Assembly (NCBI GenBank): GCA_028753945.1
Contig: JAPNXP010000015.1
Coordinates: 3,162,001 to 3,226,000 of the forward strand
Length of the DNA stretch: 64,000 nt
Origin: Hexactinellida sp. DTS-2022
Taxonomy: Eukaryota > Porifera > Hexactinellida
Direction: 5' to 3'
Below are positions 15,901 to 64,000 of this stretch, piece by piece. The notes under the pieces were generated by a model. That model did not search any database. It worked only from the letters and a program-made list of their open reading frames with translations, and had not been told where the DNA came from. Made by a program: the position numbers and the translations under genes. The first letter of the stretch is position 1. Every line of letters starts with the position of its first letter.

Positions 15901-18900
15901 TGGTGATTTAAGGGTATCTTTACCAAACTGAGATTTGAAAGAGAAATCCTTTGACAATATTTTAATACGATTATTGTTAAAATCACTAATATATATTTCT
16001 CCATTTGATTCATCAATTGCTATACCATAAGGAAAGTTAAATTCCAATTCTCCTTTTCCAGCTCTCCCTATTCTAGAAACAAACATCCCATTGAGTTGAT
16101 AATTGAGAATACAGTTGTTATATTGTGAAATAAGAATTATATTTCCACAAATAGCTATGCCTCTTGGGAAGAACATCTTTCCTTCACCTTCATTGTCTCC
16201 AAATTTGAACAAATACTTACCAGTATTATCGAATACTTTCACACAGTTATTACATTGGTCTGCTATGTAAATATTTCCTGTTTTATTATCAACTGTTACA
16301 CCTAGTGGCCAATAAAGTTGTTCCATTCCCTCTCCTCTCTCACAAACACTCACGAGAGGTTGTTTCTTGCTTTTATAGTCAATTCCACTTCTCACTTTGT
16401 CTACCAAATAACCCAACTTGTTCATTTCAACTACGATTTTGGTGCTATCACACTCAAAACTAATCATTTTAGGTTCTATCGGAGTGTCAATTGATTCTAA
16501 TTCTGTGTTTATTTCATTCAGTATTCTTTCGACGAAAGGTTTAACTGGTGAAGATATGAGTGTCTCTTGTTGTTGTTGTTTCATTACATTAAGACTTTCA
16601 ACTTTGTTTCTCACATTCTCAAATTCGCTTCGATAAGAGAGATAAGAAGTTAGAATATTATCCAATTCTCTCAACAGCTCACTTTCTCTAGTTTTCAAGC
16701 AATCAATTAATTCAACAAACTTAGTTTTAATCTTTTCTTTCACTCGACTCAATTCTAACGCGTAATTATCTTCTCTCAATGGATTAACAACAGCCATTAA
16801 TTTGTTCGTTAACTTATTATTCAAACAAAATAACAAGATATATATTACACTTAATTAATCAAATGACGATACTTTACCTATAGCTATTAGCTATTACCTA
16901 GGTAACCTGATCATAACTAGACACAAATTGTAATCTACGTTGATTAAAATGACATTAGTTGTATCCAAGGCATAATTAAACCAAGATTGAAACCGTTTCA
17001 ACCAAATATGTACTGATTGTTAAACTGAATAGTAATATTCGGTTGACCAAATATACAAATAAAGGAGATTCTAACATTAATGATATTTCAATATGTATGT
17101 AATACAGTAAAATCTACAATAATACAGAAATAAGAAAAATTAGAGAATATTTGGGGACCATATTTTGGATATGAAATACACAATCAAGTTTGCTGTTGTT
17201 GATTACAAGAGGAGAGGAAAACCATTTATCTTCATATTTTCGTGGTCTTATCGTATATAGAATTCTCCTTCGGAGAGAATACCTTGATGTTTCCATAGTC
17301 GTTATTAACAGTGTTATTACAGTGCCAGACAAAAGGATAACGATTCCCCTTCAAATCGCATTCCCATTTCTATTGTAACTAGGGAGCGGAGCTTCTTTCC
17401 CGAGAGAGTAAACACGTGTATGCAGGGATTGTTATAATGGCTAAACATAAATGTTTGAGTGTTTGTGAATTTAATATCATCAAGTGAAGTCATAGTTCTG
17501 TGTCGTAGCAAGCCTTGAAAGCTAATTTGTATATTGTTGTTTTTATATGTCACATAGAGGCGTTGATTTGGAGAGATGGCGAGTTGACTCGGATAATATA
17601 ACTTTACATTTTCAGGTCCTTCCTTTCCTACTCGCTTTATCATAGTGAGATCTGGCAGCTTGAATAGGAATATAGTGTGTTGTTATGTGACATAAACACT
17701 TCCAGATGGATTAATATGCCCCAGGCTTTATCAAGTGTTGGTGTCTGAATTGGTTGAGATAGTTTCCTGTTTCTGAGAATATTTGTATTCTTCTGTTAGC
17801 TGTTATTTATATCTGCCACATAAACGTGAGTTGATTGAGACACCTGTTAAACACCCCCAAGAACTGATCCTTCTTTCCCAACAGCACAATGGGTTGGTGG
17901 AACGTAGCATAATTTGGCATTTCTGGCATAGGTGATATGGAAGCAATCTCGAGTTGTACAACCTTTCTCTAGCCTAGGTCCCGTGTGTCGCAGAGGTAGC
18001 TCGCTTTTAAGGTTGTGTTGTTACCACTTGCAACTCTGCCATTTTAGATTCCAATCCTGTCACCATTTTATCCTGGATGGATTGAAGCAAATCATGTGCC
18101 ATTTGACCTCCAAAAATTCGCGGGTTTCTGCTATTTGTTGTTGCATTTGTTGACGCGCCACCCGATTGGCTCTGATTTCCTCTCGTCTGTCCGTTAAGTC
18201 GGACAATAGCTGGTGCCTTCTCTGCTCGAGAGAGAGTATTAACTTGTCTATCGATTGGTTGATTTGTATCGACACGGGGTCTACGATTGGCACTGGGATT
18301 AGTTCAGGTATTTGAGACGACATTTGTCAAGACGAATAGATTGTTTGCTCTCAGTGATTAATTGTTAATATTGAGTTGTTGTTACTTTGAATTTAAAGTA
18401 AAAGTGCACTGGTGTTCTACAAATAATTTGTTGAGAAGTATTATTAATCGTATACAGTGGATGCCGGTTATAAGAGCATCGTCGGGAATTGCATATAATG
18501 TTCTTATAACCGACATGTTCTTATAACCGGCATAAATAATATAGGGGTATATGGCAACCGTTTTCTAGTAGAGTGTTCTTATATCCGGCATGTTCTTATA
18601 TCCAATATCTACCGTATTTCAAACTGTTCCAAAAGGCCTTCAGGACTCCAAGCCCATAAGCCCTACCAATTTGTAACCACCTACAAATTGGCTTACCAAA
18701 CGCCATACAGAGTCTACGCCGCTGAATTAGTCATTTTCGACTCATTTTATCACAAAATGTTTACCAAACTAAACCAAGTGACATCCCGGCAAAAATTTCT
18801 GCGCGCCTAGATTAAGTTTGAGAGCGCTCAGAAGTGCCTAAATTACTCAATTTGTATTAAGTCTATGGGAGCATCTCTCGATTTTCGCGCGTCTAGAAAA

Positions 18901-34645: not shown

Positions 34646-35206
34646 CTAATTTTTCTCAGATTGCTCCTTCCGCTTTCCTCTCTCTCTATCTTTCTTAACA
34701 TTATCCGCTCGCTTAATGCTAATGGCTATGTCTATGTAGTCTCCTATTTGGAACTTTTGGCTCGACAGAGTGTAGCTGTCATCTTGCCCACGCTTACCAG
34801 CTATCGTAACCCCGATTTCCTTTATTCTAAATATAGAATTACTCCTAACGCGACCGCCCGTGACGTATGGAAATACTGTAGCGAACGAGAATACAGTTCC
34901 TTTCTGCCGGGTGTCCGGATTAACCTCGTGGACCAGGGACATTAGCTCTTTCAGTGTACAGTCCATCCAAGTGTATATTTGCAGCTCGTCAGCTGGGACC
35001 TTCCCACTTGTGAAGTCCTGCGGTCTGTGATGTTTGCCGTTTGAGTTACAGAACACGCGTAGCAACAGGGGACACGTACGCTGTCTATCGATAGTGTTCG
35101 GGAGAAAACCAGGGAGGTTCCTCTCTCTGTCTCTGTCGCGAGGAGGCGCGTCTCTCAGGTTTACAGGGGAGCGGGAGCGGGACCGAGACCGACGTTTCGA
35201 CGCCAT
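34646..35206 (-). CDS. SAP18: SAP18 with an Arg/Ser-rich N-terminal extension
   Basis: Single exon, 186 aa. From about residue 42 it is an unmistakable SAP18 ubiquitin-like fold: DRQRTCPLLLRVFCNSNGKH, ELQIYTWMDCTLKELMSLV, FSFATVFPYV, RIKEIGVTIAGKRGQDDSYT, SQKFQIGDYIDIAI. SAP18 belongs to the Sin3 histone deacetylase complex and to the ASAP/PSAP exon-junction complexes with RNPS1 and Acinus or Pinin. Human SAP18 is ~153 aa and starts near the fold. Here about 40 extra residues include KRRSRSRSRSPVN, an RS-domain-like tract, and RDRDRERN. The tail is basic and charged. The gene is compact, about 400 bp upstream of the COX6C-like gene on the same strand. Confidence 0.95.
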   Translation of the reverse strand: MASKRRSRSRSRSPVNLRDAPPRDRDRERNLPGFLPNTIDRQRTCPLLLRVFCNSNGKHHRPQDFTSGKVPADELQIYTWMDCTLKELMSLVHEVNPDTRQKGTVFSFATVFPYVTGGRVRSNSIFRIKEIGVTIAGKRGQDDSYTLSSQKFQIGDYIDIAISIKRADNVKKDRERGKRKEQSEKN

Positions 35207-35271
35207 ACAAACAGATACACTATTCTATCTACAGACTACTTAGCATGTATAAACCAAGGAATTATTCAGGA

Positions 35272-40247: not shown

Positions 40248-42335
40248 TCATTTGTCCAAAGAAGGAGCTAAAAAATGAGCCACATCCTCGAAAGCAAATC
40301 GGTCATTCAATAAACTAACTGTGACATCATCACCATCACCCGTATCAAGTTTAATATTACAATTGTTCGCTAATACGAGTGACGTTAAGAACTGACAAGC
40401 CACTTCGTTAGGCCGCATATCTTTAGTCAGCAGAGACCACACAATAGTGGAATTAGGCTGCGACTTCATTCGAGACACGAGACACAAGGAACTCTCTCGG
40501 ATATCGAACACAGAGACCCGAGCTTCGGTTTCTAGAATCGGACTAACGTACCGTCTCCACTCCTCCACGCGAGAGGAGAGCGCAGAGCTCTGCGCGTGTG
40601 TGTGTGCGCTCTGACGTATGTCATGCAGGTACTTCTTAACCTTACGAGCGTAGCCCTGGGTGCCGGGGTTGGGAACGCTGTCTGCGAAGAGGGGAGACTC
40701 TGTGTGCAGCTGGAAGTTAGGGATGTGCTGGGGAGGCAGGTCCTGCTCCGGGTTGGGATCAGCTGGGAAGTCAGCTGGGCAGTCGGCCTCTTCGTCTGAG
40801 CCGCAATCCGCGTTAGGGAAATCTGGAGAATAATACTGTCAGGCTTGCAAAATTTCTCACCCATTTATATTAAGTCTATGGGAATATCTGTCGATTTTGC
40901 GCCTATAAGTTTCCCTTCAAATTTACGTGCCTGGATGAAAATTTGATTAAATTCAAAATTATTTTAAAATGTGACATAAGGAAGGGGAGTCTAATTATCG
41001 GGAATTTGCGTTACGTAGCGTTGAAACGCAAAAAAAGTATCGACCTTTTTAATATGTACAGGAACGGACCGTCAAATTAGTACTCCTTTAACCGGAATTC
41101 CGTATTAACCGGTGTCATTTGTATTGAATAGGCTTTGGCTGAAATAGTGTACGTATTACCCGTGTCCGTACTAACGAGGTTATCTCACCCTGTTGCGAAT
41201 AGTACTTCACAATAGGGACACTGCTGTCTGCCCTAGATCTCTGCAGAGCCGCCAGCCTCTGCACTCGCTTGGCCAGCTCCCCTCTCCGCCTCTGTTCCAG
41301 CCAGAAGCCGGCCTCCAGCGGGAGGAAGGAGAGTCTCAGAATTAAACTCTTCGGGAAGTGCTTGCGCTCTGACCAGAGACAGCTGATCAGGTGCTCCACC
41401 AGCCCGCTCTCAGCTGGCTGCGGGTCTCGTCTCCTCTTCCCGGGAACAGCTGATGCGGTTAGCGCGGGCGGGAGCTTGTATGTCTTCCCGCGCTTGAACG
41501 GCTTGCTCTGCCCCCTGGGCTTATCGTAGGGATTTAGCACTGCTAGCATTGGGTGTCTGTGTATAGACAGCGAGCTGCTGGCGAGAACAGCTGACTGCAT
41601 TAGAGCCAGCGCTGCAGTGGGCGCGGGGGACCTCTGGGGGGTCGCGGGGCTGCCAGCTGGGGGCGAGTCGTACGCGCTCCTATCGCACCCAGCTGTGCTA
41701 TCAGGGGACGGGTAGGCAGGGGGGATAGTGGTGTCCGTAGAGCTGTGCTCTGTGAGGTAGCGGGCGAGACTCGGCTCCAGGAGGTGCGCTCCCGAGGAGT
41801 GGGGGGTCCCCGTGAGCAGGTTGAAGTCCTGGCGGTGTCCGCAGGCCTCTCCTGTCGAGGAGTAGAGCGGCGTGTTCTCTATGCAGGTGGGGGTGTCCAG
41901 CATAATGGCAGGTGTCTCTGTCATTAACTTCCGGTCTGTGATAGGCCCCTCCTCTCTCAGTATGGACACGCAGGTTGGTAGGTCATCAAGGGATAGCAAG
42001 TCTACGGTGTTGTTGTTGTTGTGTTTCCTAGCTGCTCTAGGGGAGGAGGGCTGCTCTGTTCTCTTTTGGTTGGTTAGGAGCTCTAGTGTCTGTACGACCA
42101 GTGTGTAGAGGTACTCTACCTTCTTGCTAAACACCTGTGTCGAGCCCTGTATTAGGAGAGCCGCCTCTACGAAGTCTATTCTGGTCTTGCCGTTATCGAA
42201 TGTTATCTCCAGCTGTTCCACCTCCTCGAGGTACTCCTCCAGCTGAGTGGCCAGGTCTATGTTCCAGTTCTCTGCCAGGTCCCGTATGGGGGCCAGCAGC
42301 TGTTGGAAGCGCTGGTTCTCAGAGTTCTGTGTCAT
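40248..42335 (-). CDS. NCAPH2: Condensin-2 complex subunit H2
   Basis: Two exons, 41189-42335 and 40248-40822, join in phase to give 573 aa (human about 605). The N-terminal condensin H2 domain is clear: RFQQLLAPIRDLAENWNIDL, LEEYLEEVEQLEITFDNGKT, FVEAALLIQGSTQVFSKKVE, YLYTLVVQTLELL. Next come the NTPLYSSTGE and FKRGKTYKLPPAL motifs and a C-terminal winged-helix-like part (ALSSRVEEWRRYVSPILETE, SLVLANNCNIKL). NCAPH2 is the kleisin of condensin II, bridging SMC2/SMC4 with NCAPD3 and NCAPG2 in mitotic chromosome compaction. The start chosen is the ATG at 42335, which matches the family N-terminus. A family A MITE end abuts the single donor site. Confidence 0.96.
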
Positions 42336-42695
42336 GCTGGTAATAATATTGCTGGATAGGGTAATGTTATACAGTGGATGCCGGTTATAAGCACATCGTC
42401 GGGAACTGCACTTAGTGTGCATAAATGCAGTCAGGTTCTTTTATTATAAACATTCAAGGGACCAAAAATTGTGTTCATAATAGAGAGACTTCAAATAAGC
42501 GAACTCAACTTAATACAAATTAAGTTGTCAAATTGGGACTATAGGACTTGTTCATAATTAAAATTTCATTTTAAATTAAATACACGTATTTGTAAATCGA
42601 AATAACAAATAAAAGGGAATATGAATCACAAAGCATACAGCTTTGCTTAGGGGACAGTTTACTCTCAAAAGCGTTAAAAATCGAATAAATAACGG

Positions 42696-43559
42696 TTATA
42701 AATACTTATCACTCGTCTTCCCATTGAGTCTATTGTATCGCTCATGAGCTGACTCGGTGGTGAACAGAATTCGGTGGTTTTCGAACTGTTTGGACTTCTT
42801 AAAGCGCGCATCAGTCCCTATGAGGCGATCTAGAATCTGGTAATTTCCGAAGTTACTGGTAAAGCTATAATGGTGAAAGTCATGAAATTCATTCGAATAT
42901 ACAAAGGGGAAATGGTACCCGGAATGGTCTACGATGTGAATAAAAAGAGTCAGCAAAGTCCACAAAATAATAACAAACATGTGTCCCCCTAGGAGGGTCG
43001 GACCTGAAATAGCAGACATTGAGTTCGATACTACATGCTCGATTGGATGCACGTAGAAACCGGTTATTGCACAGGGGGAAATCCACTCATGGTGGATCTT
43101 GTGAATGTGTTTGTATAAGAATGGAGTGTGGAGAAGTCGGTGCGAACAGTAGAACCAAACTTCCTGACAAATTATGTAGCCGATGAGGTAAATGGAAGAT
43201 TCTAGAAAAGAGGGAAGCTCCGGGCTGGTGGAAATACCGCGCTGTGTAACTGTGCCAGAAAAGGTAATCGTTAGCAAGAAACCAATCACTACCTGATTCA
43301 GGAAAGTGAGAGCCGCAGCACGCTTCAATCGCCCGATATCAATCGGGACGTTAGGCTGAATCTTATACTTTATAAGGAACTTAGGTCTGCCAGTTATATC
43401 AACAAATGTTAAGAAACCAACTAGAGTCCAATAGAAGATATTCATAACAACCCATGGTAGGATGGAGCACACCTTAAAGTGGTCGTGGCTACAAAGGTCA
43501 AGTGCCCAAACCCAGAGACGAGTGGTGTAAGAAGGCACGGCAAAAGCTTGTGAGTCCAT
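42696..43559 (-). CDS. FAXDC2-like: Fatty-acid hydroxylase-domain protein, FAXDC2-like
   Basis: Single exon, 287 aa, ATG at 43559. Four or so membrane helices surround the three histidine boxes of the sterol desaturase/fatty acid hydroxylase superfamily: HRLLH (140-144), HKIHH (153-157) and HDFHH (226-230), with HPIEHVVSN between. These bind a di-iron centre in the ER membrane. The arrangement and length suit FAXDC2 (C5orf4) or a C4-methylsterol oxidase-like enzyme. The substrate cannot be told from sequence. It lies about 360 bp upstream of NCAPH2, on the same strand. Confidence 0.88.
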
Positions 43560-47500: not shown

Positions 47501-50500
47501 GTCTGTGTTGGAACCTATCTCCCACTCGTCTCTGCAGCTGCACAATATCTGGTAAGTAACGAGTCACAAACAATCGGGTTTCTTCTTTCAAAAACTTGGA
47601 GACTAGAGGACACTTCTCTTTCGTTGTGAGATTAGTTGTACTGAAGCTCTGAGAGAAATGCTCCAGACTCACAATAGTCCTGTAGCGCCATAGGTGAGGC
47701 AAGGGGTTATCTGCTTCAGGCTCTTCTCTCTCATACACGATTCTAAGTTGAGATACATTAAAGAGATAGTCACTAACCAGTTGTGTCTCTAACAGCAACG
47801 TATTAACCTGAGCAGTGGATTGTTAGCAATCCTCTTCTCACTGAGCACCTGTTGCATCTGTCTCTGTACATCTGTGTGTAGAGAGGTGAGTATTGGCTGA
47901 ATGAATTTCTTGTCAAACTCCCTCTCCCACTGCTCTCTCTGCTCACGCTGTGTCAGCCCAGTAGGAATACCACCTGTAGCATAGCAGTTAATCACAGCAG
48001 CTAATACCTAGCACTTAGACTGCTATATAATGTGTATGGAGAGTATACTCACATGGCTCTCCTGCTGTCTGCATAAGAGACTTGATGACCAGATGAAGAA
48101 GGAATGTGGCTTCTTCAAAGTTCTTTCCTATCAGTCCAGCTAAATCCCTCATATCTCTCTCCAGGTGTTGGTAGAAGAAGGTAGACAGGTCTCTGGGGTT
48201 TTCTAATCCTCCTTTCACCAGAGAAGGTAGAGCTTGACTCCTGTCAGTGGGATGTTTGGAACAAGATGACCAAATGAAGGATATGTCCATTAGGATACGA
48301 ATTAGAGATACGGATGCAGGAGAGAGAGATCTAGGTTTAAGTATTCATTGTTAATACAGTAGATGTAGGATATAAGCACACCGGTTATAAGTCATATCGG
48401 ATATAAGAACACTATGTTGGAAATGGTTGCCATATAGTACCCTGTATAATTTATGTCGGTTATAAGAACATTAAGTGCAGTTCCCGACGATGTGCTTATA
48501 ACCGGCATCCACTGTAGTGATTTTAGAACTGGTCCACTACATAGTAGTCGGCATAATAATAAAAACATCAGTAAATGAAAATATTTTCATTGTAATGCTT
48601 GAATAATTCTACCTTTCAGAACTTGGAATATTCTGTCTCTGATCCACCCTCCCCAGAACATAGCCGGGTTTAGTAGCATCAGCAGTGGTGTTGACTACAG
48701 TACCGACTTGTGTGACCCTGGGGTCCTCTCCTCCCACCCAGGAACCACAGTCTGGGCATATCTGAGCATGAGTAGGCTGGCCACACTATATAGGGTCCAT
48801 TATTGAAACAGTTTAAGTCTCATTTAATCTTACTTTAACAGTTAAGAACAGTATATTACAGTAGTTACCTCTCCAACGAAGTAGGCGTGGCCCTTATTGC
48901 AGAGGTACCATTGTCCCCTCCCCTCTGTCTGCTGCACAACTTGTCTCACACTGTGTAACTGATCATCCATCATTGTAGGAAACAGCTTATTAACAAGGGC
49001 ATTAGGATTCTGGTATAACAGAGAAATGGGGGAGAACAGCTGAGGGAAAGCACTAGTGGACAGCATTATGGCCATGTGGTATATTACTCGAGAGAGAGCC
49101 AATTGGTTGTGGTTGGATTGAGGAGAGAAATGCAGAGATTGGAGTATACCATCTCCCAAATTATTCGACAACATTTGAAGACCGATTTGTAGTAATTCAT
49201 TTTGAATATTGCTTAGATTTGTATTGAAGAGTTCTCTCAAAGCCAGATACTTCTATTGAATAAATATATCATAAATAAGTTAACGGGCGAGTAGTATCGA
49301 ATTATATGCACACGTATAAATATATTACATATACTGTACTTAGTATACTACATTATACCTCGGTTTGACTAACATCCCCTCTTGTTGCCGAATTAGATAC
49401 AACTTGGAAGATCGAGTATAGATAATATTCGACGTTAGTATCCATTTCCTGTAAAACAAAGTATTAATTATCAATCAATAACAATAAGTAATTAGTTCTC
49501 TTCACTTAAACCTACGCACATACCTGAGGACCAACTACGTCACTATCAAAGTACTGCAGGAGGGATTCCTTGCTCTGACTGACATTAGCCTGCTCAGCAG
49601 AATACTTCAACTTCGCATAATTGTCTCCGTATATTATGAAATAGTCTGGTGATACGTACTGTGACTAAATGAAGAAAAGTAGATATTCAAACACTACTTA
49701 ATTAGCTTAAACACATTGATACTATTTATAAACAGTAAAACCTCGTTAATACGAACACCAACGGACGGTAAAAATTTGTTCGCTTTTCCGGAGTTCGTGT
49801 TAACCGGAGTAATACCATTGAAAGCCATTGTAGGAACCTGATTTTGTGGAAATGTTTCTCCGTCTTAACCGGTAATTCGAATAACCGTGTTCGTACTAAC
49901 GAGGTTATACTGACATCCAAATTGAATAAATATTATACCTCGACCATCCTATCCATAACTTGTTTTGGTATAACCCATGAGCAGGTACGGTTAGAAGTGA
50001 TCAGAAGGAGCGTATCACTCCCTAACTGATGGTATACGTTCTTAAGTAGGAATACATGTAGATCCTCATACCCCTGCATCAAACAGATGTCTTTAAAGAT
50101 AAATATTAACCTCTGTCTCTCTCTCATTATATGATCAGGTGTATCCGATCGTGTTCTTATAAGGCCATAGCACTCAATGATCCAGTGAGATATGTGGATA
50201 CAGATAAATCTCAGACTAGCTATCTTCTCTAGTAACTCATAGGATAAATTGGAACGTTTAGAGGTTCCATGTATACCAGTGGATAATCTTTTTTCATTAA
50301 TAAGTATCATTTCTAATATATTATGTTGTTCTTCAGAGTTTTGCTGTTTAAAATGCTGGTGATGTGAATCCTGTAATATATTTATATTAATTAAGCTTAC
50401 AATGTCATCTGAATTCATAAGGGTAATAAGTTCATTCATACCTCTATTGATTGTATTATTATCATGTAGAGTTCCTGATTTGTTTCTAAGTTTTCTAAAT

Positions 50501-53500
50501 CCTGGAGAGGTCTGGAGAGTTTGTGAGAAATGATTTCTGTGAATACATCTCTCCTAGAAAACATTCTGAATAAAATAGGAAATTGGTTATATGAAATAAA
50601 GTGCATGCCTATGTTTGATCATAATTTGCAGCAAAAATGTTTTGAATGAGAGAGAGGGGTTGAGTCCATTCTTCTTAAACATGGTGATAGAACTCCTCTC
50701 ATTCCTTTCCAGCTCCTTCATATTATTCTTATCCAGCATTACAAGTCCCACCAGTAGCTCTATAAGGTCAGTATTGGAGTGGCCTTTTGGCAGACATCTG
50801 AATGTTAAGCTGGTAAGAATGTTAATGAAGAATCTAGTTGCGCATTCTCTCATCTTCTGTTTACGCGTAATTTCATTTCTATATAGTACAAAATTATTAA
50901 TTAAGTATTTAATTATTTGTGCACACAAATAAATATGCCACTAGAGTCGCTCCGCTTAAATTGAGTTAATTTGGTTGGGGAAAGTTTGACCTAATTAAGC
51001 AGATCATCCAATTAACCGAAAATATTACAAGCCAAACTGTGATTCTATTCAGTAAATCGTATAAAATGCTGGTCCATCTAACCGTGGCTCAATTAAGCGG
51101 AGTCTTCTGTAATTAATAAGGAGCATATTTTGCTCAATGAACTAAAATGACGTGATTAATGAATCACTAAGTTAATTGTAAAAGTAGAAATCAGACGAAC
51201 CTTTGACCTCCAGGTAAATTTTTCAAACAATTTGATAGGATATCAAGTATGTCTTGAATTGTCTGAACAGAAGTGAAGTCCGGTGTTTCAGTTAAAATCT
51301 AAGAAAATTATAAAGAATTAATATGAATCAGTTACTAATTATAATTGCAATATATTTTACCATAAATATTCTGTTGATACTACTCTCTGTACAACTTAAT
51401 CCTATTGACAGGCTACAATGTGATACGAATAGCTGCACTGCGATTATTCTGTTCCATTTAGATCTATAATATATGTGCATACAGTAAAATAACGTATCTT
51501 GGAATAAGTAGTAAACGAAACAAACTAGCCTACGAGTGTACAATAAAACGTACTTAAGTTTATCGACAGTTGTCTTGTATTCATGGTCATTTCGTCTATT
51601 AAAATTCAATCCCTTCTCCACAATTGGTTGCCACTGTCTGATTTCAGTCACATATTTCTCAGCTAACTCCTCTCCAGCAGTACGCTCTTTCCTATGGTAA
51701 CACAATGCTATTATCTCTTCTAACAGAACTAGTTCTAAACAAGTCAGCTTTTTGTCCTTTATCTTTCTCATTTCTGTGATAATTTTAAATATTTTATCCT
51801 CCAAAGTGCTCTCCAAAAAGAATGCCTCTTGCAAGAGATCTAACAACTGTTTCGATTCCTCATAAGCACAGTATATTTTAGGAATTGTAAGCTCTCGTTT
51901 TAAACAGTACTCGCTTCGTTCTCCACCATCAACTTCAAATGTTGGGAAGTGTTCGATACACAACAGAAGTACAGACTCGTATACCTAGCAGAGTATAGTA
52001 AAATTGTTGTAACAAAAATATATAGATGCATATAAAGTACATGTAATAATATAATTAGTAATTAAATATTATAAAATAACTACAATGATTTTGATGTGTA
52101 AATATAAAAAATTACTTTAGTTATAGATTTTTGACCAAACTGATCTATTAAGATCTTTATATGTCGGCTAGCCGACGCGACATTGTAGGCGGCTGACAAA
52201 TAAGTAATTCCAAGAAAAAAAGGGTTAGAAATAATTGGCACATGCACATTACACTCTATATAATTTAAGGTAAATGTACATACAAACGATAAATGCAAAT
52301 CTACACCAATTCCTACTTACATTGAATTGTAGTTGTCTTGAAGTAAGGATGTTCATTTGTATAAAATCCATCAGAAACTCAAGCAGACAATCAAAATAAG
52401 TATCATTGGACATAAAATTGCGGTTAATTAACTCTCCTAGCGGAGTTTGATTGAACAGGGATTCAAAATGGTACCAGACAGGTCCTGAAGTGTTTGCTAG
52501 AAATAAATAAAGCAATTACAGTAGTAAAACTAGTAATATACATACATATATACCGCATTATTGAAGACGGCATACCAAAATTTATTAACCAAATATTCAT
52601 TATAACAAATTGTAAGCGCGGGTTATGGTCTCAGCCCAATTTTCAATAAGGACAATTTGAGAATTGGTAAAAATATATTGTCCCAATGAAAATTAACTTA
52701 TACACTCATTATAGTATATACTAGGCCATGATATTATACGATTGTGTATTCACATACGTTTAATCGTAGCAAACTTCCGCCATAGCTCTTCCATTAATGT
52801 TCTGATGAGAAATGAGAACGGAAATCTAGACTCGAAGTATTTCCCACCAGCTCCATCACTCAACACAGGTACTCTCCTTCTAGGCAGCAGAGTGAGAGGA
52901 GATACTGTGTCTTTGTACTGCAGGACAAACAGACGGTCATCTCTGAATATATCTTGCCAGAGATTGTGTAGACACTCTGGCACTTCTTCATTACGGAGAG
53001 CTAGTTGTAGATTCCCATTTCTATCCAGACAAGCAATCAGCTCGGACAGGAGAGGAGTAATTGTATTGTTAATACGGAGATTAACAGCCTTGCGGAATGT
53101 ACCACAAGATTGTATGTCTTCTCCACAGTTAGCTGTCTGTAGTAACCAGTCACAGCTGATGTCCATTGATTCATATTGGTCTTTCAATAGAACTGTCAAT
53201 CTCTGACACAGTGTTTGGAAGAACACATCTATATACATATAAATAAATAAAAAGTAAATAAATCAAAAATGCAACAGAGGCTTACGGAGACAGACATAAA
53301 GAAAACAAGTACGGTATGTTGATTTCGTAAATTTCTATAATTACTATATTATTATTTAGGTTATTATTGAATTACTATATAATAGTTTGTAAAAGGCTAG
53401 GCTTTATCCAATAAATAAACTACTAATTATAATAATTAAAGCGAAAACCGGGTTGCAGTTGAGTGGTGCGCCGCGAAACGACCTAGGAGAACCATAATTA

Positions 53501-56500
53501 AGTAATCTTATATCAGTGTATAGATTTCAGGATGTATGACAGAGACACACTTACGATTATCGTTTTGCCCCTCAACTAGCTCAATAAAATCTTGCATTCT
53601 AACAAGAGTCCGCTTCTCACTTCCATCCTTATCAACAAGTCTTGAAACTGCAGACTGCATGCAATTTAGTAGTCTGGTCTTCTGACAAATAGTGGGCGGA
53701 ATTAATTCTCCAGATTCCTAAGCAAAGAATAGACATAAATGTGTGTTCTGGTTAAATTGTAAAATGCTCTTTGAGAGAAGTTGTATTTATAAATAGAAAT
53801 TAAAATCAAGCCGTGAGTATTTAAATATACATATTCCAAGGAATTCCTATAGGAAAATGGAAAGAAACATGGGAATTCCCATAGATATCCTGTGTGAATC
53901 TGGTTGCTGGAATAAAATATGGCATTGGCAGAACTACAGACTAACCTGTTCATAACCCCCGAATACTTGGTAGATCTTTAATCCAATCAGCTGTGATATA
54001 GGAGGCAGCTCTGTATAGTCCAGAGAACGTATATCATCGATATGCACTGTGTTCCAGTCTCCTCCACAGAAACTTATAAACTTACTCCCGTGTGCCTCTC
54101 TACTCAGTTGGACCAGGAACATTATAAACACATCACACTTAAACTCTCCGATCTGTTCCTCTCTCCAGTCCTTCAACTCATCCACTGTTTTGTGACGAGC
54201 ACAAGCAATTAGCTTAGCATTCTCTGCTCCTCTCTCACACTGGACAAGTAGTACCTTTTTCTCTCTCATCTCGCTCTCAGAGTCTCCTCTCAAGAACTTA
54301 TGAATCTCTCTGATGTACTGCTGTTCTGTCTGGAACTGCTGTAGAGACAGACTCCGCATTTGCACTGAATCTGTATCTCTAGACAGACGTTGTTGCAATT
54401 GATCTATGTCCCTCTCTGTGAGAAGTCGCGAGTGGGTTGTAGCGAGAGTGAGGTGTGCTACTGTATCATCTCCACAAATACCACTCAGTACTTGACTCAG
54501 ATACTCCTCTAGACTGCCTAACTGTAGCTTGAAATACTCGGATATAATCTGTTCCGACTGGATAGCGAGAAGACTGTTCTTAACACGCAGTATTGCATCT
54601 GTAGTAGCCATTCTAAGCAACAGAGTCTGACTTTTCTCTAAAACTGTTATCCTATCTACGCTAGGATCTGCAGCATGTGGATACATCTCTTTCATTACGT
54701 GAAATACAATGGAAGAAGGAGTATCAGTGTTATAACCAATAAAACAATCTCCGATTGTAAACTCCCCTCTCCTTTGCAATCCAATAGACTTAGCCCTATC
54801 GAGAGTCGAGAAGTCCTGAGCCCACTCAGCCAGCTGTTTAGATACTATAATACCGTCTGCAGTTAGGACAGTGGACATGGTGAGGAAATGTTTCTCAAGT
54901 CGATTGATGAGAGGAGTAGGGAAGGTGGTGTACACTGTATCGGAATCTGCGATTACGATAAGCTTAAAACTGTCATGGACTCTGCATTTCATTCTGTGCG
55001 TACCTAAACCAAGGTCTACATACCTCTGGTTATATATCTTCATGTAATACTGGTTTAGAGCGTCATACAAACTCTCATACAAGTTCTCCAAGTTCAGAAG
55101 GATCACAGTTTTCCCAGACTCCATACAAACTTTAATTTTATTTATATTCCTACATACCATCGAGTATTCTTGATCTCTAGGGAAGTTTGAACCGAATATA
55201 ACACGAATATCATCGAGCTTATATTCTGGCCACAAGTTGGTGGATTTAAGTAGAATGTTAAGAGCTGAGTAATTCTCCGTAAGAAGCAGCAGGTAACGAG
55301 TCTCCCCGTAAAAAGAGGTGGAGAAGCTCGCCAGGTTAGCTCGAATGAGCCCCAGGGGTGAGCTATCAGGGCCTACGGCACAATCTACTGGCAACTTAAC
55401 TGTTTGTATGAACAGCTGTAATTCCTTGTTATTAGACGCTCCCCCAAAGTTCCTATACACACAGTGCTTCAGTATAGGTAGAGTTAGCGTTGTTTTATAC
55501 TCATAGCATAGAAATACCAACATTTTGATTAGACTGTAGAAATCCCTCAAACCATAATACTCCCTGGATTTGTGCGTCTCGCGAATCAATTCAAGATACG
55601 CTTTGGACAAGTCAGGGATGCAGATTTCAATGCTGGCTACAATATCTGAGTCGACTGAGTTAGAACGACAGATCTCTCTGGCACTTGATAGCAACTCTTC
55701 TTCGCCAGGGTCTCCTCTCGATACCATAATCCCGCGGTTCATTTTAGCAGGGTCAAGAGACCAGTTGGAAATCCCAATAAACGCTACCTCTTCAGTATTC
55801 TCGTCCCTCTTCTCCTCAGATCCGTAACTACTGTCCTCTAATAGTGGGTGCAGTACCTTCAAGGGAAGGAGAGGAGAGTCTTCTGCCAGGCCCACCTCAT
55901 CCAGGACTACACAACAAACGAAGTTACTGCTCTGGGTTTTCTTTTGCATTTTCTTGCAGTTATCGAACACTCCAATGATTCCTTCGGCAGTAGACAGCTG
56001 GCTGCACTGGTAAGACATTATATGAATTTCTTTGAAATTCCTGAGAATGGAGCCATCTTGGCATTTATTTCCTTGCATATTATTAGAAATTATTGTCTTA
56101 GCCAGGGACTTGGAACTTCCCGGCTTTCCGACTACGAAGAGTGGAATTTTCAGTTCTATGCTCACGAACATCATAAATACATTCTCTTTAAGAGCTGTGT
56201 TTTTCGCAATGTGTTCCCCTACAGACATCTGATCTAGGATATTCTGTTGACACCTGTCTATCTCGATGTCTATCACCTCATAATTAGTTATGGGAGTAAG
56301 CGGGTTCTTAAAATGTTTTGAAATTCTCCGATCGAAATTTCTCCGTTTTTGTAGCCGAGCTCGATAGCACACGGCAATGGCTAGAAGTAAACTGTAGCTT
56401 ATTTTATCAATCCCTGAGATCCTGGGTACCCGTGGGATCTGTGGGGACGTTATAGGGAGTTCTAAGAGAGGAGCGACAGGTTGGGCAAGTGCTATTATTG

Positions 56501-59500
56501 GTGGCTTAACTCTAGAAGCTATTCTCAGAGGTGAAGTGGGGCTTGAGTGTGCGGAGGGAACTCTATATCTAGGAGGAGATGATGTTGGAGATTCTATTCT
56601 AGAACGAGAGTTTAACAACTCCATAAAAGGAGTATTTTTAACAGTTACATTAGAAGTGAGAGCTCCTTGTACAGTTAGGGTATCCTCAACTACAACCGGG
56701 TTATATGGCACTGCCTCTTCAAAATACTTTGGGACAATAAACTCAAGCTTAGCATAGAACCATAGCATCACCCTCATTGCTCTCTCCACATCTCTCAAAC
56801 TAACAAAGCTACACTCATCCTTTGTCTCTCTCATGTAACTCTGTGCACCAGCCAGAACATCACTTATCACTTCTATAATGTCATCTCGTGCTTCTATCGG
56901 GCTGTTACGGTCCCGTAGATGTTTCGCTACAATCTCTCGAGTATATGTCTTCTCTATGCTGTTACTCAACTGACCGAAATCCCACACCAATGGTCGTAAA
57001 CTAGCAGGAAGCTCCATCACTCGATAGACCAACTCACGGAGAGGAATGTCTCCCAATCTGTCTGTGGTTTCACTGGACTTGGTGAAGAACCCGAGACCAG
57101 CAGAACTCAGTTTGCTCAGCATCTCCTCTGTGTGTTTACGATAAGGATTACAGGCTGCTATGAACTGCAGTCCAATGTCAGTGCGGATGTGTCTACCGTA
57201 CATTCTCCTGTCACACATTATCTCTTTGATCAGTCCAATGGCTGGGCTCGTGTTGGCTTCATCAAAAAACAATACAGTATCAACTTGGTGTTCGCTATTG
57301 CTATAATTCTTCTGTGCTAGCTCCTCAGCTTCCGCTACCTTTGACTTCACATCCGACTCTGTGGTTCCGCCATGTACCTTCAGTATTAGCATGTTAGTAG
57401 CTCCTGTCTGTAGAGCTTGTAGGGAACACATGAATTGAATGAGGCGTGTCTTGCCACAGCCTGTCTCGCCCATTATAACAACGGGAATGTTACAACGGAA
57501 TCTCATCAGAATTGCTAGGATCTTCCTCATATTGTCAAGAGTTAATACATAACCTGGATCTGGATCTGATAGCCATTCAAGTTCCATCACATTGGCCAAT
57601 TTTTCTATCTTTGTACGTTTGTCTAACTGTTGATAGTCCTCATTAAAGTTAACTTTATTGAGCTCCAATATATTAAGTAATTTCGGATGTAGAATGTTAG
57701 CTTCAATGACATTAGTAGGGTCTTCAGAATCGCATAGATGGCCTTGTTTGGATATATGGAAACCTATGAATGTCATACTGTGTCTATCCGGATTGAAGAA
57801 TATGTAGGGATGTGAGGCGTTCTCCCATTTGCGTCTCTTAACAATTTCATAAACTTGTATCAGGTCTTTGGTCACAGTATCAATTTCTTCCCTCAGAGAT
57901 GGTGTAGCGAAATCTCGAGACATGTGAATAAGAAACTTAACTACAAAGGATTTGAATCCAAGCCATTCCTCACCTATAGTACAAAAATCAGAGTTATCAC
58001 AATCAGAAAGTTGTTTACTTAAGAAGGTACCAAAGTTATTAATTTCTAACCAGGAAGGCTGCTGGATACCACAGTACTTTAGCAATACCTGTAACATTTC
58101 AGGAGGACTCCTCCTATGGAAGGTTGTGCTGTCAAAAGTAAATTTATCAAGATTTTGACGTGCTTCCAACTGTTTCAAGTAAGCGAAAGTTCTTTGGAAT
58201 TCTTCCTTGTTCAATTCATTGATATTAATAGTTTGCATTCCTCGCGATTCTGAAATATTTCGTGTGTTTAGTGCCTGAATTGGCTGTATGCATTGCAAAG
58301 ATGGGAAAAGCTGACTGAATTTCACAAGTTGTTTAAATTTAGGGATAATGGTTGTTTCAATGACGTAATAGTCTTTACCATTTGTGTGCCATAGCTCACC
58401 TGATCTCTTACAAATCCCGCCTAATATGAGCAGTTTGAATATAACCGGTTCTATTCCTATCTGTACAGTAGATGCTATATCCACGTGGTACATGACTCCA
58501 TGCTTAACACCACTAGTACTCCTCGTAAGCAGTTGTTCAGCTAGATGTTCCTCAGAAGCTTGTTTACCGTGAATAGCTACAGTCACAGCTGATTGCTCTC
58601 TCTCCTCCTCACTCACTATACCCTGACTCACCAGGTCTGATTTGAGATTATTAATATAGAGAGACTTACCTGCCCCTACGCTATCCGATACTACCAGTCT
58701 AACTCGCGATCTCTCTTTGTCTACCATCCAAGCTGATGCACAACTATTATAGGATATTCTCTGATAGAACTTTTGTTGCAAATACTCACTGATACTTTTA
58801 AATACGTTATCATTGGTGACATGACTGGGTCTCTTGTAGTTCTCGAGAGCAGCTGCCATATAGGACTGCTCCTCCCTCTCTTCAGAACAAATAATAACGA
58901 GTTTATAGCAAGATTTAGCTTCCAACTGCAAGTACCTCCTCAGAATGCTCACAGACTGCACTGCTACTTCGTACTGCAGGTTCTCTACGGCAACCAAACA
59001 GTACAAGTATAAGTGATTATTGTTCGACTTGAAAATGACTCTTCTCCAGAAGATATCGAGCTCTTCCACCGTTGTGAGATCAGAGCAGAGCAATACTTCA
59101 CTGGAGTCGGGAAGCGGAAGTAGGGGGGACAGCTGGTAGAGAGAGAGGATCGATTCATAAATAAGATAATTCGGTATAAATATTAGATTTGGTTCTTGAG
59201 ACTTAAAAATAGTACAGAATGCCCTGTCTTCTCGGATCTTACTGTTTCCGCTGTTGTATACTACTTCCAGGAAAGCTCCCAGCTTCAAGATATCAATATA
59301 CTCTATCTCTGTTGTTACAATCTCTTCTGTTATTTGTACAGGAGTGTGAGTAGGAAGAGTGGTGCCATTCCTCTCCTCTGTATCATCCCAATCCATAGAT
59401 TCATCTCCAGAGCTGCAATCTTTCTCGTCGTTTTTAGTATTATTCTGCATGCACCACCTCATAACTGATTGTTCAGTAACAACCTCTGTCTCTCTCTTTA

Positions 59501-62500
59501 TTGCAGTGATGCCTTGGATACATAAAGAGAGAGAGAATCCGCAATGTGAACATAAATTCTCTACAATCTCCTTTTCACTATGAGAAAAGTTATCAGGAAC
59601 TTGAACCTCTTTACTCCCTTGTACCTGCTTTAGAGGTTTTGCTGGCTTCTTAACGGTATCTGCACCAATAAATAAGTATTGACTGGTGCGTGCAGTTGAA
59701 TGGAATCGAGTTTGTCTAGACCTAGAGGAAACAGCAGCAGTATGATGTGGATGAGAAAGTTGTGTAGAAGTCACAATGTTCGATTGCTTGAGAGCCAATT
59801 GTATCTCTTCTCTGGTTATATCGGCATTAAGAGAACTGAGCAAATGGTAGAGCTGTTCTTCGCTCTGTGGGTTTGAATTCTCAATGAAAGCTCGTACGCC
59901 TTTCTGGAGTAAAACTATTTGTTTAATTGTAAAGTAATTCAAGAAATAACAATTCGTCCTAGCTTCTTCTAGCCTTTGTTCGCACAGTTTCAGAGTATCT
60001 CGTGTTTTCTGTATTTCTGATTCTACTTTCGGTGCTTGTTGTAAGTCGCAAGAAAATGAATAGTTGAAGAATCGTATATTTCCTATCTCAGCTAAACTGC
60101 TTACGATGGTCGCGAGCTCTGAGATTAAGTCGAAGAGTTGATTGAATTTGCTGGCATTTTTCTTGCTATCACTCTTAGGTATAATGTCAGACTTTCCAAC
60201 CACAAGGGTTAGTTTGCTCCTCAGATCTTTCAGTTGTTCCATAGTATAAGTCTTCGTAACGGTTCCTTTTTTCTCAGTTGACAGAGCAACCATCTCAGTC
60301 GCATTGAACGTACTGTGTGTTGAAATAGTGAAGGTACCAGAAGAGACAATCTTCTCAAGCTGCATGAGAGCTCCTTCTTCCAAAGAGCCTTGTGACTTCT
60401 TCAACTCCTCCCAGAATGAGACATTCTTGGAAACATACTCAAGCATTCCAATCAACTCTTTATTAGTGTTAAAGACAGAGAATACCTCTATACACCTCGC
60501 AATGAGATAGTCATAGGTTGTATTTGTGTTAATTGGGAATATAATAGGAGCTAGATTAGTGCATACAGAATGCAGAATCATAATGCGGTCTGTTTCGGCT
60601 CCGTCTCCACTGGAGGTAGTCAACGCTATTTCAACGAAAGTCTTCAAATCATTTAAATCACGCATATTATTCTTAACCCATTTCAAGAATTCAATCCTAC
60701 TCAATATCCTCTCTAAAACCTCCAGATTCTCATATGTGAAATGTAGTAGGGAATCTGTAGTGTTTACTAACTCATTGTTAATGGCTGAAAGGGGCTTGTT
60801 TTGAAATTTTATTTTTACATTTTGAAGATTTTCAATGAGAGAGAAATCTCCCTCAATAGAAAAGGCATCTCTGAGCTTAATTAATTTTGAGGCAGCTTCC
60901 GAGTTTTTATAAATAGTAAAGTATAAAGCAATCTTCTCACTACATTCAGCGAGCTCAGGGTAATCTACAATTGGCTTAGATTGAGATTTCTGAAAACCGA
61001 AATAAAGAAATTTTAACTCATTGAAAATTGATCGATTATCCTGTATCTTACCGAAGTAATTTTGCACATCTGATAAGAGAATGGTCTGGTGAACAGTATT
61101 TTCAATAACTTTTGCAATAATGTTCAAAGTTGGGGTCCAAACTTTAGAATATAAGAATTCGAAATTCAACACTTTTTCATTGCAAATATCTGACTTTTCA
61201 TACAGGTTAGAAAATGAATGGGTAAAAATTGCAGAATCTTTAAAGAAGTAAACAGACTCGGACATAGTTAAGAAATGAGGAAAATTAATAATATTGTTGA
61301 TATTTGGAAGATTTTTAAACGAGAGCTTATCGTCACTGAAAACAATTTCGTTAAGACTAAGATACATAAAATTCATTGCAAGAAAATCTTCAATTGTCTT
61401 GAAGTTAACCATTGGAATTAAAGCAGAAAATTGTATTAATTCTTCAAATCTCGCACATTTGTCAGTTAGCCAGTTAGTAGCATCACTCCCGAATTTAATC
61501 GCAGATTCAACATCCTGCAATGTCGTTTTCTCTTTAGAATACTCAATTGCAAGTTGAGCAAGGGATAAGAACAAGTCTTGTTTTTGAGAAAATAATGATG
61601 CATCATAGAAATTCATTTGATGGGAACATAATGATTGAATTAGTAAATTAAACCTACTCAACGCAGATTCAAGCATAGTATGGGCTTCCTCACTTAAGTT
61701 TCGAAACAATTCAGGAATATTAACAAATTCAAAATAAGTTTCCCATGATGGCCATTGGAGTAAATGATGAATTTGGTCATTCACGAATGTATCTCGTTCA
61801 TCCAGTAAGATGGAACTAAATATTGTACTAAGACATTTAGATTTACCATAGTGGGATGATTTTAACCTGTTAACTACCTCGTTTCTATCATGTGTATTTA
61901 AAAACTTGAGTTTAGCAATCATTTCTTTAAGAAATAATTCTTTCAAACAATCACTAAGTTTGTCATGAACGAAGATTAACAATTCAATAAACAAGGACAC
62001 GGGTATTTCTTCTGTCTTCAACCGTTTCTCTAATAACTTTATGATCGAATCTGACCATTCAATAAAATGGGGAAATTTCAAATTTACTACTCTATCCCAA
62101 AATCGCATTTCTCTTTCAAGGTCAAATAGATTCTTTTTATTTGAATATATCTTATGTTTACACCACTTTTCAACAAACAAGAGTACCTCTTGGAAATTTT
62201 CAGAAGGAATTTTAGAAACTGCTGATGCACAAATTGTAGTACACTGATGGGCAATTAGTTGAAGTGTTATAAAAAACTCTTCTTCGCTAATTACAATTGA
62301 CAGTTGACTAGGTAACTTAAGTGTCAATTTGAACAAATGTTCAATCTCGAGAGGAGGAATAGACGTGGAAAGATCTTCTTGTGAAAATTTCGAAATTAAG
62401 AACTCCATGATGGACATGAACAAATCTCTATCATGGTTATTTTTAGATTGTCGAATTAATATTAAACTTATGAACCCAGAAAGAGGTAGAACAGTGGGTT

Positions 62501-64000
62501 GAGAAAGATGAAGCTTGTAAAATAGGTGTGCGTTATAGTAACTGATAGAATTATGAATAATACTGTAAGATAGGATTGAATCATACTGCAATAAATCAAA
62601 TGATTTCTGAATATCATCATTGGTAATATAACCGGTTTTATAGATTGTGAAATGAGCAGGAAATCCCCAGTATTCGTTGTCAGTGTAAGATAAACGATTC
62701 AAAGAATTAACATGAGTTTCATGGAAATTGAATAAACAGTGATAAAATGCCAAAAGTTGATAATATTTCGTATAAGATTTGGTAGGTAGTACATAAGTAT
62801 AGATAAATGTACAAAATACTTCATGAAGTTTATCCATTTGTTGAATATATTCCAAAGCAAAATTTTTAATGAGCAGTGATTCATTAATGATACTCCCTAT
62901 AGCATTAACCACCTTAAAAATAATATCTTCACCAGTCAATTTATAACTGCAAATTAAATAACAAGATAGGCATATGCGCATGAGCTTTTCCCTGAAACCC
63001 AATTGATCATTATTTAAATGGAGAGATAATGTAAATCTTTGAATCAAAGTTATTGGAGCCCTATCACGATAGAATTTCTGGTCATCCCATAGTCGTATAT
63101 CTCCCGCAATATAGCAAGGAGAAATGTAAAGTTGCGTAAATTCCTTAACTAAATTAGTTAAGGTTAGAAAAAAATCATCCAATTTTGTGCATTCGAGAGA
63201 ACAAGGAAAATATCCCATACCGAAAAACATTGGTAGAAAAGCCAGTAATGATAAAAACCTTCTATCATGAATATCTTTAAATGGAAGTTGATCGCTTCTA
63301 ACCACAGAAAATAAAGAGTATAGAGTATTCATTGAAAATAATCCATCCTCCTTTTTAGGACATTCAGGTAGAATCATCATATCAAATATAGTGACATGTG
63401 AATGCATTAAATCAGTAGAAATCTCAGGAATATTTCGATTGAAATGACGATTGAAGTTTACATTTTGATAATGATGTAGATCTTCATATACCCCTTCAAC
63501 GTTACTCATACAGAAGAAATATTTATAGGGAAATTTGAGCACCTTATTATGTATGAATTTAACCGGAACATTCAAACGTCCAGTAATTAGAACAAATTCA
63601 AACTCTTTGTTATTATTATTCAAATGTATAACTTTTAAGGGATGAAACTTACAATAGAGCCCTTTGAACTTGTCCATCCCTATTCGTAAGCACACAGCAT
63701 CAGTTTTATCCCATACTTCCTTCAAGACAATCGTATTAAATTGCAAAGTAAGGGAATTGGGGCAATTGGGTTCAACTTCTGACAAAATAGGGAGATTTGA
63801 GACCTCGCAATCAAAATAGGACGAATCAGTATCAGACTTGGAAGCCTGTTGGTCAGTATCGGATTTGGAAGCCTGTTTCTTAGTATCAGACTTGGAAGCC
63901 TGTTGGTCAGTATCGGACTTGGAAGCTAGTTGGTCAGTATCGGACTTGGAAGCTAGTTGGTCATCAGACTTGTAAATTGGTTTCTTAGTATCAGAATTGG
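44543..64000 (-). CDS. RNF213-like: RNF213/mysterin-like giant AAA+ E3, 5' end beyond window
   Basis: 23 exons, at least 5,020 aa: 53946-64000 (open at the edge), 53555-53717, 52758-53228, 52321-52496, 51554-51984, 51361-51463, 51201-51298, 50609-50878, 50442-50565, 49939-50370, 49524-49664, 49359-49448, 48869-49252, 48613-48785, 48053-48330, 47808-47973, 47441-47742, 46693-46951, 46074-46353, 45785-45994, 45475-45564, 44998-45167, 44543-44717. Counting from the first full codon: AAA1 Walker A GETGCGKT (2177) and Walker B FFDEAN (2246); AAA2 GKPGSSKS (2624) and LDEVGLAED (2700). A Pro/Ser-rich insert separates them. The RZ finger spans exons 13/14 (YLCNKGHAYFVGE, CGQP, ICPDCGSWVGG). No RING is found between exons 7 and 8. 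RNF213 is a ubiquitin ligase of lipid droplets and cytosolic pathogen defence. Confidence 0.95.
44737..44936. mobile_element. MITE, family D, in last RNF213-like intron
   Basis: Starts CAATCAGGTTCTTTTATATG and ends AAGAAGACCTGACTG (inverted). The interior carries AACATTTAAGGGATC and TTGTTCATAATAATAC. It nearly fills the intron 44718-44997 and begins 20 bp from the acceptor. Confidence 0.75.
45203..45450. mobile_element. hAT-like MITE with perfect 8-bp target duplication
   Basis: Ends TAGGGTGACC and GGTCACCCTA are perfect 10-bp inverted repeats. GATGTAGG is duplicated at 45195-45202 and 45451-45458. The inside repeats GTCCAG and GTCCAATTT. It fills most of the intron 45168-45474 of the RNF213-like gene. 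Confidence 0.92.
45602..45768. mobile_element. MITE with GTCGAAACCGG ends
   Basis: CAGTCGAAACCGGTTTATTC faces GAAAAACCGATTTCAACTA, with an interior of repeated TATTCTAACT words. In an RNF213-like intron, ending just short of exon 20 (45785). Confidence 0.65.
46425..46680. mobile_element. Family E element with iterated 3' end
   Basis: A family E body is followed by three head-to-tail copies of the 3' terminal unit (ATACCAGGATTAGGAGCGTA plus TTTACAAATGGCTGTATAAC). A two-copy version is at 28050-28140. In RNF213-like intron 18. Confidence 0.6.
48357..48514. mobile_element. Tigger-like MITE, family B
   Basis: CAGTAGATGTAGGATATAAG to TTATAACCGGCATCCACTG, TA-flanked. It lies in the RNF213-like intron between exons 14 and 15. 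Confidence 0.75.
49733..49912. mobile_element. Tigger-like MITE, family A
   Basis: CAGTAAAACCTCGTTAATAC to GTACTAACGAGGTTATACTG. It lies 26 bp inside the donor of RNF213-like exon 10 and occupies most of the intron. Confidence 0.78.
50944..51112. mobile_element. MITE filling RNF213-like intron 7
   Basis: AGAGTCGCTCCGCTTAAATT at one end faces AATTAAGCGGAGTCTTCTGT at the other. It takes up over half of the 322-bp intron between exons 7 and 8, the interval where a RING exon would be expected. Confidence 0.65.
63826..64000 (-). repeat. In-frame 27-bp coding minisatellite at the RNF213-like N-terminus
   Basis: Five 27-bp units and a variant sixth run to the window edge. In the gene's frame they encode nine-residue repeats such as DQLASKSDT, DQQASKSDT and KKQASKSDT, a polar Ser/Lys/Asp-rich, probably disordered stretch. 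The frame is open throughout and continuous with the giant exon, so the coding sequence certainly extends past 64000. Confidence 0.9.

Follow-up and report, generated by a model that had tools for sequence, protein, structure and literature searches.

A putative natural RING-less, RZ finger-bearing mysterin clade in a hexactinellid sponge genome

RNF213 (mysterin), which counts among the disease genes, encodes an immune ligase, and it is unsettled what the RING that gives it its name contributes. How much of what this ligase does depends on the RING? Auto-ubiquitylation of mouse RNF213 is reported to be independent of its RING (PMC7311170), and ubiquitylation of two bacteria is described as unaffected by deletion or mutation of the RNF213 RING (PMC11549300). 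The latter report also describes ubiquitylation of the Toxoplasma vacuole as partly impaired by RING inactivation and the isolated RING as active in vitro, which makes it doubtful that the RING can be dispensed with entirely. According to the same report, the RING has no identified bona fide substrate (PMC11549300). The laboratory forms with a deleted or mutated RING, as these reports present them (PMC7311170, PMC11549300), combine an AAA core and an RZ finger with no working RING. Among the matches listed from the open-access literature, outside which most subscription papers fall, no description of a natural RING-less RNF213 was found, and 'RNF213' and 'RING-less' occurred together only in work on the laboratory deletion. 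Naturally RING-less copies would be a counterpart of that deletion, and a RING-less clade under selection would constitute a natural experiment on the role of the RING.

The stretch of DNA analysed here (the window) spans 64,000 nucleotides of Hexactinellida sp. DTS-2022, the genome of which was searched as 112,398,167 bases in 18 contigs. The gene content (RNF213, SAP18, CAP-H2) likewise points to an animal. The minus strand of the window carries an RNF213-type gene, and the part modelled base by base comprises 16 exons whose phases agree and which encode 4513 residues without a stop. Exon 1 (53946..63998; all exons lie on the minus strand) is a single open frame of 4213 codons, 3351 of them inside the window and the remainder in the neighbouring locus L008. 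It is assigned to the stalk and AAA core by alignment to RNF213 chains, by Pfam AAA families and by its Walker motifs (Walker A GETGCGKT; Walker B VLFFDEAN and VVLDEVG), which are intact in this copy; the AAA4 Walker A variant, read by eye, is GKPGSSKS. The dynein-like AAA core of RNF213 is present, as is an E3 module that keeps the order of RNF213 at the RING and RZ sites (two stretches align, with a best E of 1.4e-71), and in both respects the gene resembles mammalian RNF213. No Pfam match to CBM20 was obtained at E up to 1 in the in-window part of exon 1, to which the scan was confined. The window protein differs from mammalian RNF213 in the long 9-residue repeats near its N-terminus: at L008 5-2381, adjoining window position 64000, a 27-bp unit is repeated ~88 times and encodes repeats of the SKSDTDQQA kind.

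The E3 module begins with exons 2 (53555..53717), 3 (52758..53228) and 4 (52321..52496), continues into the E3-back region with exon 5a (51554..51984) and reaches the RING site through exon 5b (51361..51463), which starts with SKWNRIIAVQLFVSHC; all five are supported by the gene model and RNF213 alignment, and exon 5b by paralogs as well. Exon 6 (51201..51298, ILTETPDFTSVQTIQDILDILSNCLKNLPGGQ) is the final exon ahead of the RING site and is placed by the gene model and by its presence in six copies of the gene. Joining exon 5a directly to exon 6 breaks the frame, which the paralog-conserved exon 5b (51463-51361) restores. Reading the open frame 51984-51331 as one exon was likewise rejected, as this place holds ~1.6 kb in paralogous copy C and, in copy D, a 73-nt gap that is not divisible by three. 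Beyond the RING site lie exon 7 (50609..50878), exon 8 (50442..50553; an alternative, phase-preserving acceptor would place its start at 50565), exon 9 (49939..50370), exon 10 (49524..49664) and exon 11 (49359..49448), all supported by RNF213 alignment in addition to the gene model except exon 8, which rests on the latter. Pfam and the gene model divide the RZ finger between exon 12 (48869..49252), which ends with its first half (WYLCNKGHAYFVGE), and exon 13 (48613..48785), which holds the second (CGQPTHAQICPDCGSWVGGEDP). The C-terminal part begins with exon 14 (48053..48330; gene model and RNF213 alignment) and continues in exon 15 (47810..47973; gene model), and conserved stretches from below 47810 to about 44400 represent additional C-terminal exons outside the 4513-residue model.

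The spliced E3 module was aligned to human RNF213 (8s24/9g08 chain, 5247 residues), and the two proteins align in two stretches around a gap. Window residue 432 pairs with human 3975 and residue 480 with 4091, such that 47 window residues (433-479) stand against 115 human residues (3976-4090). His4014, the RING His of human RNF213 (PMC11549300), falls inside this gap with or without the estimated offset of 40 between chain and published numbering. The strict RING pattern has no match on either strand of the window, and Pfam, applied to the spliced E3 module, returns the RZ family PF20173 and no RING at E up to 1. Neither the RING in the E3-back region typical of RNF213 homologs nor a C3HC4 or related RING typical of RING-type E3 ligases was found, and the window gene is without a RING. 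The exon junction on which the preliminary description had built its case is real: the exon closing with LSNCLKNLPGGQ (51298-51201) ends at 51201, its successor opens at 50878 with (R)NEITRKQKMRECATRFFIN, and these exons, then numbered 7 and 8 and here 6 and 7, are in phase across the model. The intron between them (50879..51200, 322 bp), where RNF213 carries its RING, contains no Cys/His-rich frame. It does contain the MITE described earlier, a MITE-like dispersed repeat (50950..51102, no strand assigned) whose 10-nt inverted arms occupy 50950-50959 and 51093-51102 and which has at least 42 matches in the genome including the window itself (640 first-look places, 40 scored). A profile of six RING-less copies matched RNF213 weakly (E 0.014), with the best stretch beyond the RING site, and any homology of exon 6 to the pre-RING stretch of RNF213 is therefore tentative.

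Is the RING-less junction peculiar to this gene? A search with the AAA3 stretch gave 10 matches in the genome (14 candidates scored). Six of them have 93-100% identity to the window gene, namely the window copy itself (W) and copies F (C7:2.06 Mb), C (C1:11.1 Mb), B (C7:1.52 Mb), D (C7:1.44 Mb) and E (C3:3.66 Mb), and four have 60-64%: A (C11:13.45 Mb), I (C1:12.18 Mb), H (C1:6.93 Mb) and G (C13:4.29 Mb). The E3 parts of B, E and A lie at C7:1.56 Mb, C3:3.78 Mb and C11:13.47 Mb. For B and E this separates the AAA and E3 parts by tens of kb to more than 100 kb, and from order and strand we infer that the two parts form one gene in each case. Exons 5b and 6 were found in all six close copies, with exon 6 followed by exon 7; the search matches to exon 6 were weak for B, C, D and E (E 3e-4 to 4e-3), yet the alignments made afterwards were good. 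A RING-less junction common to six copies supports a natural RING-less mysterin, as first proposed for the window gene, more strongly than a single gene could, while for the window copy itself the reading as a ligase is limited by its RZ finger and by the donor of exon 7.

The copies are not equally intact. Exon 1 has no frame breaks in C and F, whereas in D it is interrupted by a stop and three frame breaks. The frame around AAA3, the part of exon 1 read in copy B, is open for 1389 aa in B and for 3541 aa in copy E. Flagged stops in B, C, E and F, together with one of the two in D, lie at most one residue from an exon edge, as do two of the three in copy A, the third being eight residues in and near an intron; these stops are probably alignment run-over. 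Exon 7 of copy D is duplicated, the two lying ~4 kb apart (C7:1421888-1426084, L017).

The RZ finger of the window gene is recognised by Pfam at E 3.2e-16 and 59.1 bits (cut-off 27) over residues 935-981 of the spliced module, ~455 residues past residue 480 and close to the ~465 aa first estimated. In mouse RNF213, Cys4462 is reported as the nucleophile and His4483 as the general base of an RZ Cys/His dyad (PMC12075652), the latter corresponding to human H4537 (PMC11549300, PMC12075652). The four zinc ligands (Cys, His, Cys, Cys) and the nucleophilic Cys equivalent to mouse Cys4462 are retained in all seven copies read (A-F and W), as in mammalian RNF213. The general-base position is more variable: A, B and E have His, W has Pro, F has Gly and both C and D have Tyr, such that the His is missing in four of the six RING-less copies. 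The finger had been called complete; this holds for the ligands and the nucleophile of the window copy and fails at the general-base His, which is replaced by Pro. Compared with mammalian RNF213, the window protein therefore lacks both the RING and this His, and it is not the best candidate for a ligase that works through RZ alone. B and E, in which the RZ catalytic set is kept and no RING was found in the parts of the genes read, would be better candidates as judged by the catalytic His. As copies with and without the His occur in one genome, natural proteins are available on which the proposed dyad can be tested. The other RZ protein, ZNFX1, shares the finger and is not known to have an RNF213-type AAA core. 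A ZNFX1-like candidate gene at C4:304730-304867 (L001) has an RZ finger in a 2081-aa open frame with Cys-rich repeats and, unlike the window copy, has His at the general-base place.

Selection on the RING-less modules was estimated as pN/pS by simple counting over blast-aligned codons, for each of the 15 pairs that the six copies form. These values are rough: the pairs are not independent, E enters without exon 5b, other copies are gapped, and most pairs approach saturation at synonymous sites. Over exons 5b-11, pN/pS is 0.23-0.44 in 15 of 15 pairs, with pS above 0.64 in 10. Exons 12-13 give 0.26-0.67, with the highest values for B versus C and D (0.65-0.67) and 0.26 for W versus F, and exons 14-15 give 0.07-0.40. 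Rough as they are, the values point to purifying selection on the modules and, for the set as a whole, to no pseudogene-like drift. Divergence is uneven along the gene. In comparisons of W with B, C, D and E, synonymous sites of exons 5b-13 are near saturation and dS of exons 14-15 is ~0.18-0.27; the AAA3 stretch of W has 93-95% protein identity to B-E, and the whole AAA half of exon 1 has 69% to C and D. Such a mosaic (window 53946-47810) points to gene conversion in parts of the gene that flank E3 modules which have diverged.

We hypothesize that the RING was cleanly removed from the E3-back region in a clade of RNF213 paralogs that retained the AAA motor, the E3 scaffold and the RZ finger. 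By analogy with RNF213 without a working RING in mammalian cells, which serves as the model for their action, these proteins would be transthiolating RZ ligases that depend on Cys, are switched by ATP and have intracellular targets. For the window copy, the change of His to Pro would most likely result in weakened ligase activity or in a coat or scaffold role beside more active siblings. A natural RING-less, RZ-dependent mysterin clade with a weakened or scaffold-turned window copy is the probable reading. It would differ from the laboratory RING-less forms in being natural and common to six copies and, for the window copy, in lacking the RZ His as well. Counted against this explanation are the loss of His in the window copy and in four of the six copies overall, the GC donor of exon 7, the limits of the B and D frames, the high pN/pS of B versus C and D in exons 12-13, and the effects reported for the RING at the Toxoplasma vacuole and in vitro (PMC11549300). 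A more specific version, to which we give somewhat less than even odds, is that of an RZ-only mysterin family in which the RING was already gone in the ancestor of the six copies, the AAA3 stretch and the exons just past the RZ finger stayed alike, the E3 modules between them diverged strongly, and the dyad survived in two copies and was broken in the other four. If true, active ligases and inactive partners, all of them RING-less, would form a small repertoire in this genome, and the family would be natural evidence that the RZ finger alone can carry the function.

Alternatively, the window copy, and perhaps C, D and F, could be pseudo-ligases kept as AAA-driven scaffolds that form coats or regulate. 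Replacement of the general-base His by Pro, Gly or Tyr and the intact motor of the window copy fit this idea, as does a report that RZ mutants still formed coats on Toxoplasma vacuoles (PMC11549300). However, the nucleophile and all four zinc ligands are retained, and in mouse RNF213 the His mutant is reported with lowered auto-ubiquitylation ('< 10x') and the Cys mutant with complete loss (PMC12075652). This alternative is possible, though we consider it clearly less probable than the RZ-dependent clade.

A further question is whether the window copy is a decaying gene, in which the donor after exon 7 (50609) blocks splicing. W has GC at this donor where F and B have GT, and read-through past it meets a stop after seven residues, so that, if it were left unspliced, the protein would end ahead of the RZ finger. 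Another copy, D, with its stop and frame breaks, would be a precedent. GC-AG introns are, however, natural at low frequency, the 4513 modelled residues are free of stops and frameshifts, and the low pN/pS of W versus F over exons 12-13 argues against decay. Decay of the window copy is therefore considered unlikely, and its donor has no bearing on the other RING-less copies.

Could a RING exon simply have been missed, either elsewhere or split by an intron? An intron-broken RING would evade the pattern search, and ~22 kb between exons 5b and 6 of copy E lie outside the reading. The RING-site intron, however, measures 62 bp in B, 64 in C, 69 in D and 58 in E, which leaves no room for a RING, and the flanking exons are in phase across the junction. 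It is larger only in F (286 bp), the sister copy of W, and in W, and in both the enlargement is due to the MITE-like repeat that these introns contain. The full RING pattern is absent from the window and from the stretches read of all six RING-less copies, and Pfam, which does detect the RING of copy A, albeit below the cut-off, sees none in the spliced module of the window gene at E up to 1. On the paralog introns and the pattern searches we reject a RING concealed or divided within the intron itself, and a RING missed anywhere in the gene is highly improbable.

The direction of change can be read from the more distant copies. Copy A, like the window gene, is an RNF213-type gene with an RZ finger, and unlike the window copy it has a full C3HC4 RING, CFKCNKPPPDAIALSCLHFRCRSCAPSISPDAKCFDC, flanked by the counterparts of exons 5 and 7, along with the RZ His. 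Pfam scores this RING at E 2.3e-4, under the curated cut-off. Compared with solved structures, the region matches six sequences at E 0.09-0.91, five of which are known or presumed RING proteins and one of which is unrelated; RNF213 is not among these matches at E up to 1. Copy G (L026/L027, C13:4281500-4291500) has CLVCHIAPIDPVLLECSQVKCRTC at the RING site, a half RING with Cys-x2-Cys followed by Cys-x-Gln-x2-Cys-x2-Cys, in which Gln takes the His position and the last Cys pair is absent in that frame. An additional exon of G may carry this pair, and the half RING is perhaps a second, separate RING decay in the genome. In mammalian RNF213 the RING is reported between the same flanks (PMC7311170). 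A whole RING in A and half of one in G at the same place indicate loss, and taking mammalian RNF213 as the outgroup makes the RING-less state the derived one; on these comparisons we conclude that the RING is lost in the window clade. Gain of the RING in copy A could draw on the failure to find a RING in the stretches read of the distant copies H and I, but these are divergent and were read in part only, and given the shared flanks in mammals and the half RING of G, gain is the least probable of all the readings.

Elsewhere in the window, Pfam identifies a fatty acid hydroxylase (42696-43559), CAP-H2 of condensin II (40248-42440), SAP18 (34646-35224), an NHL-repeat protein (15568-16854) and an ion-channel fragment (11557-12618).
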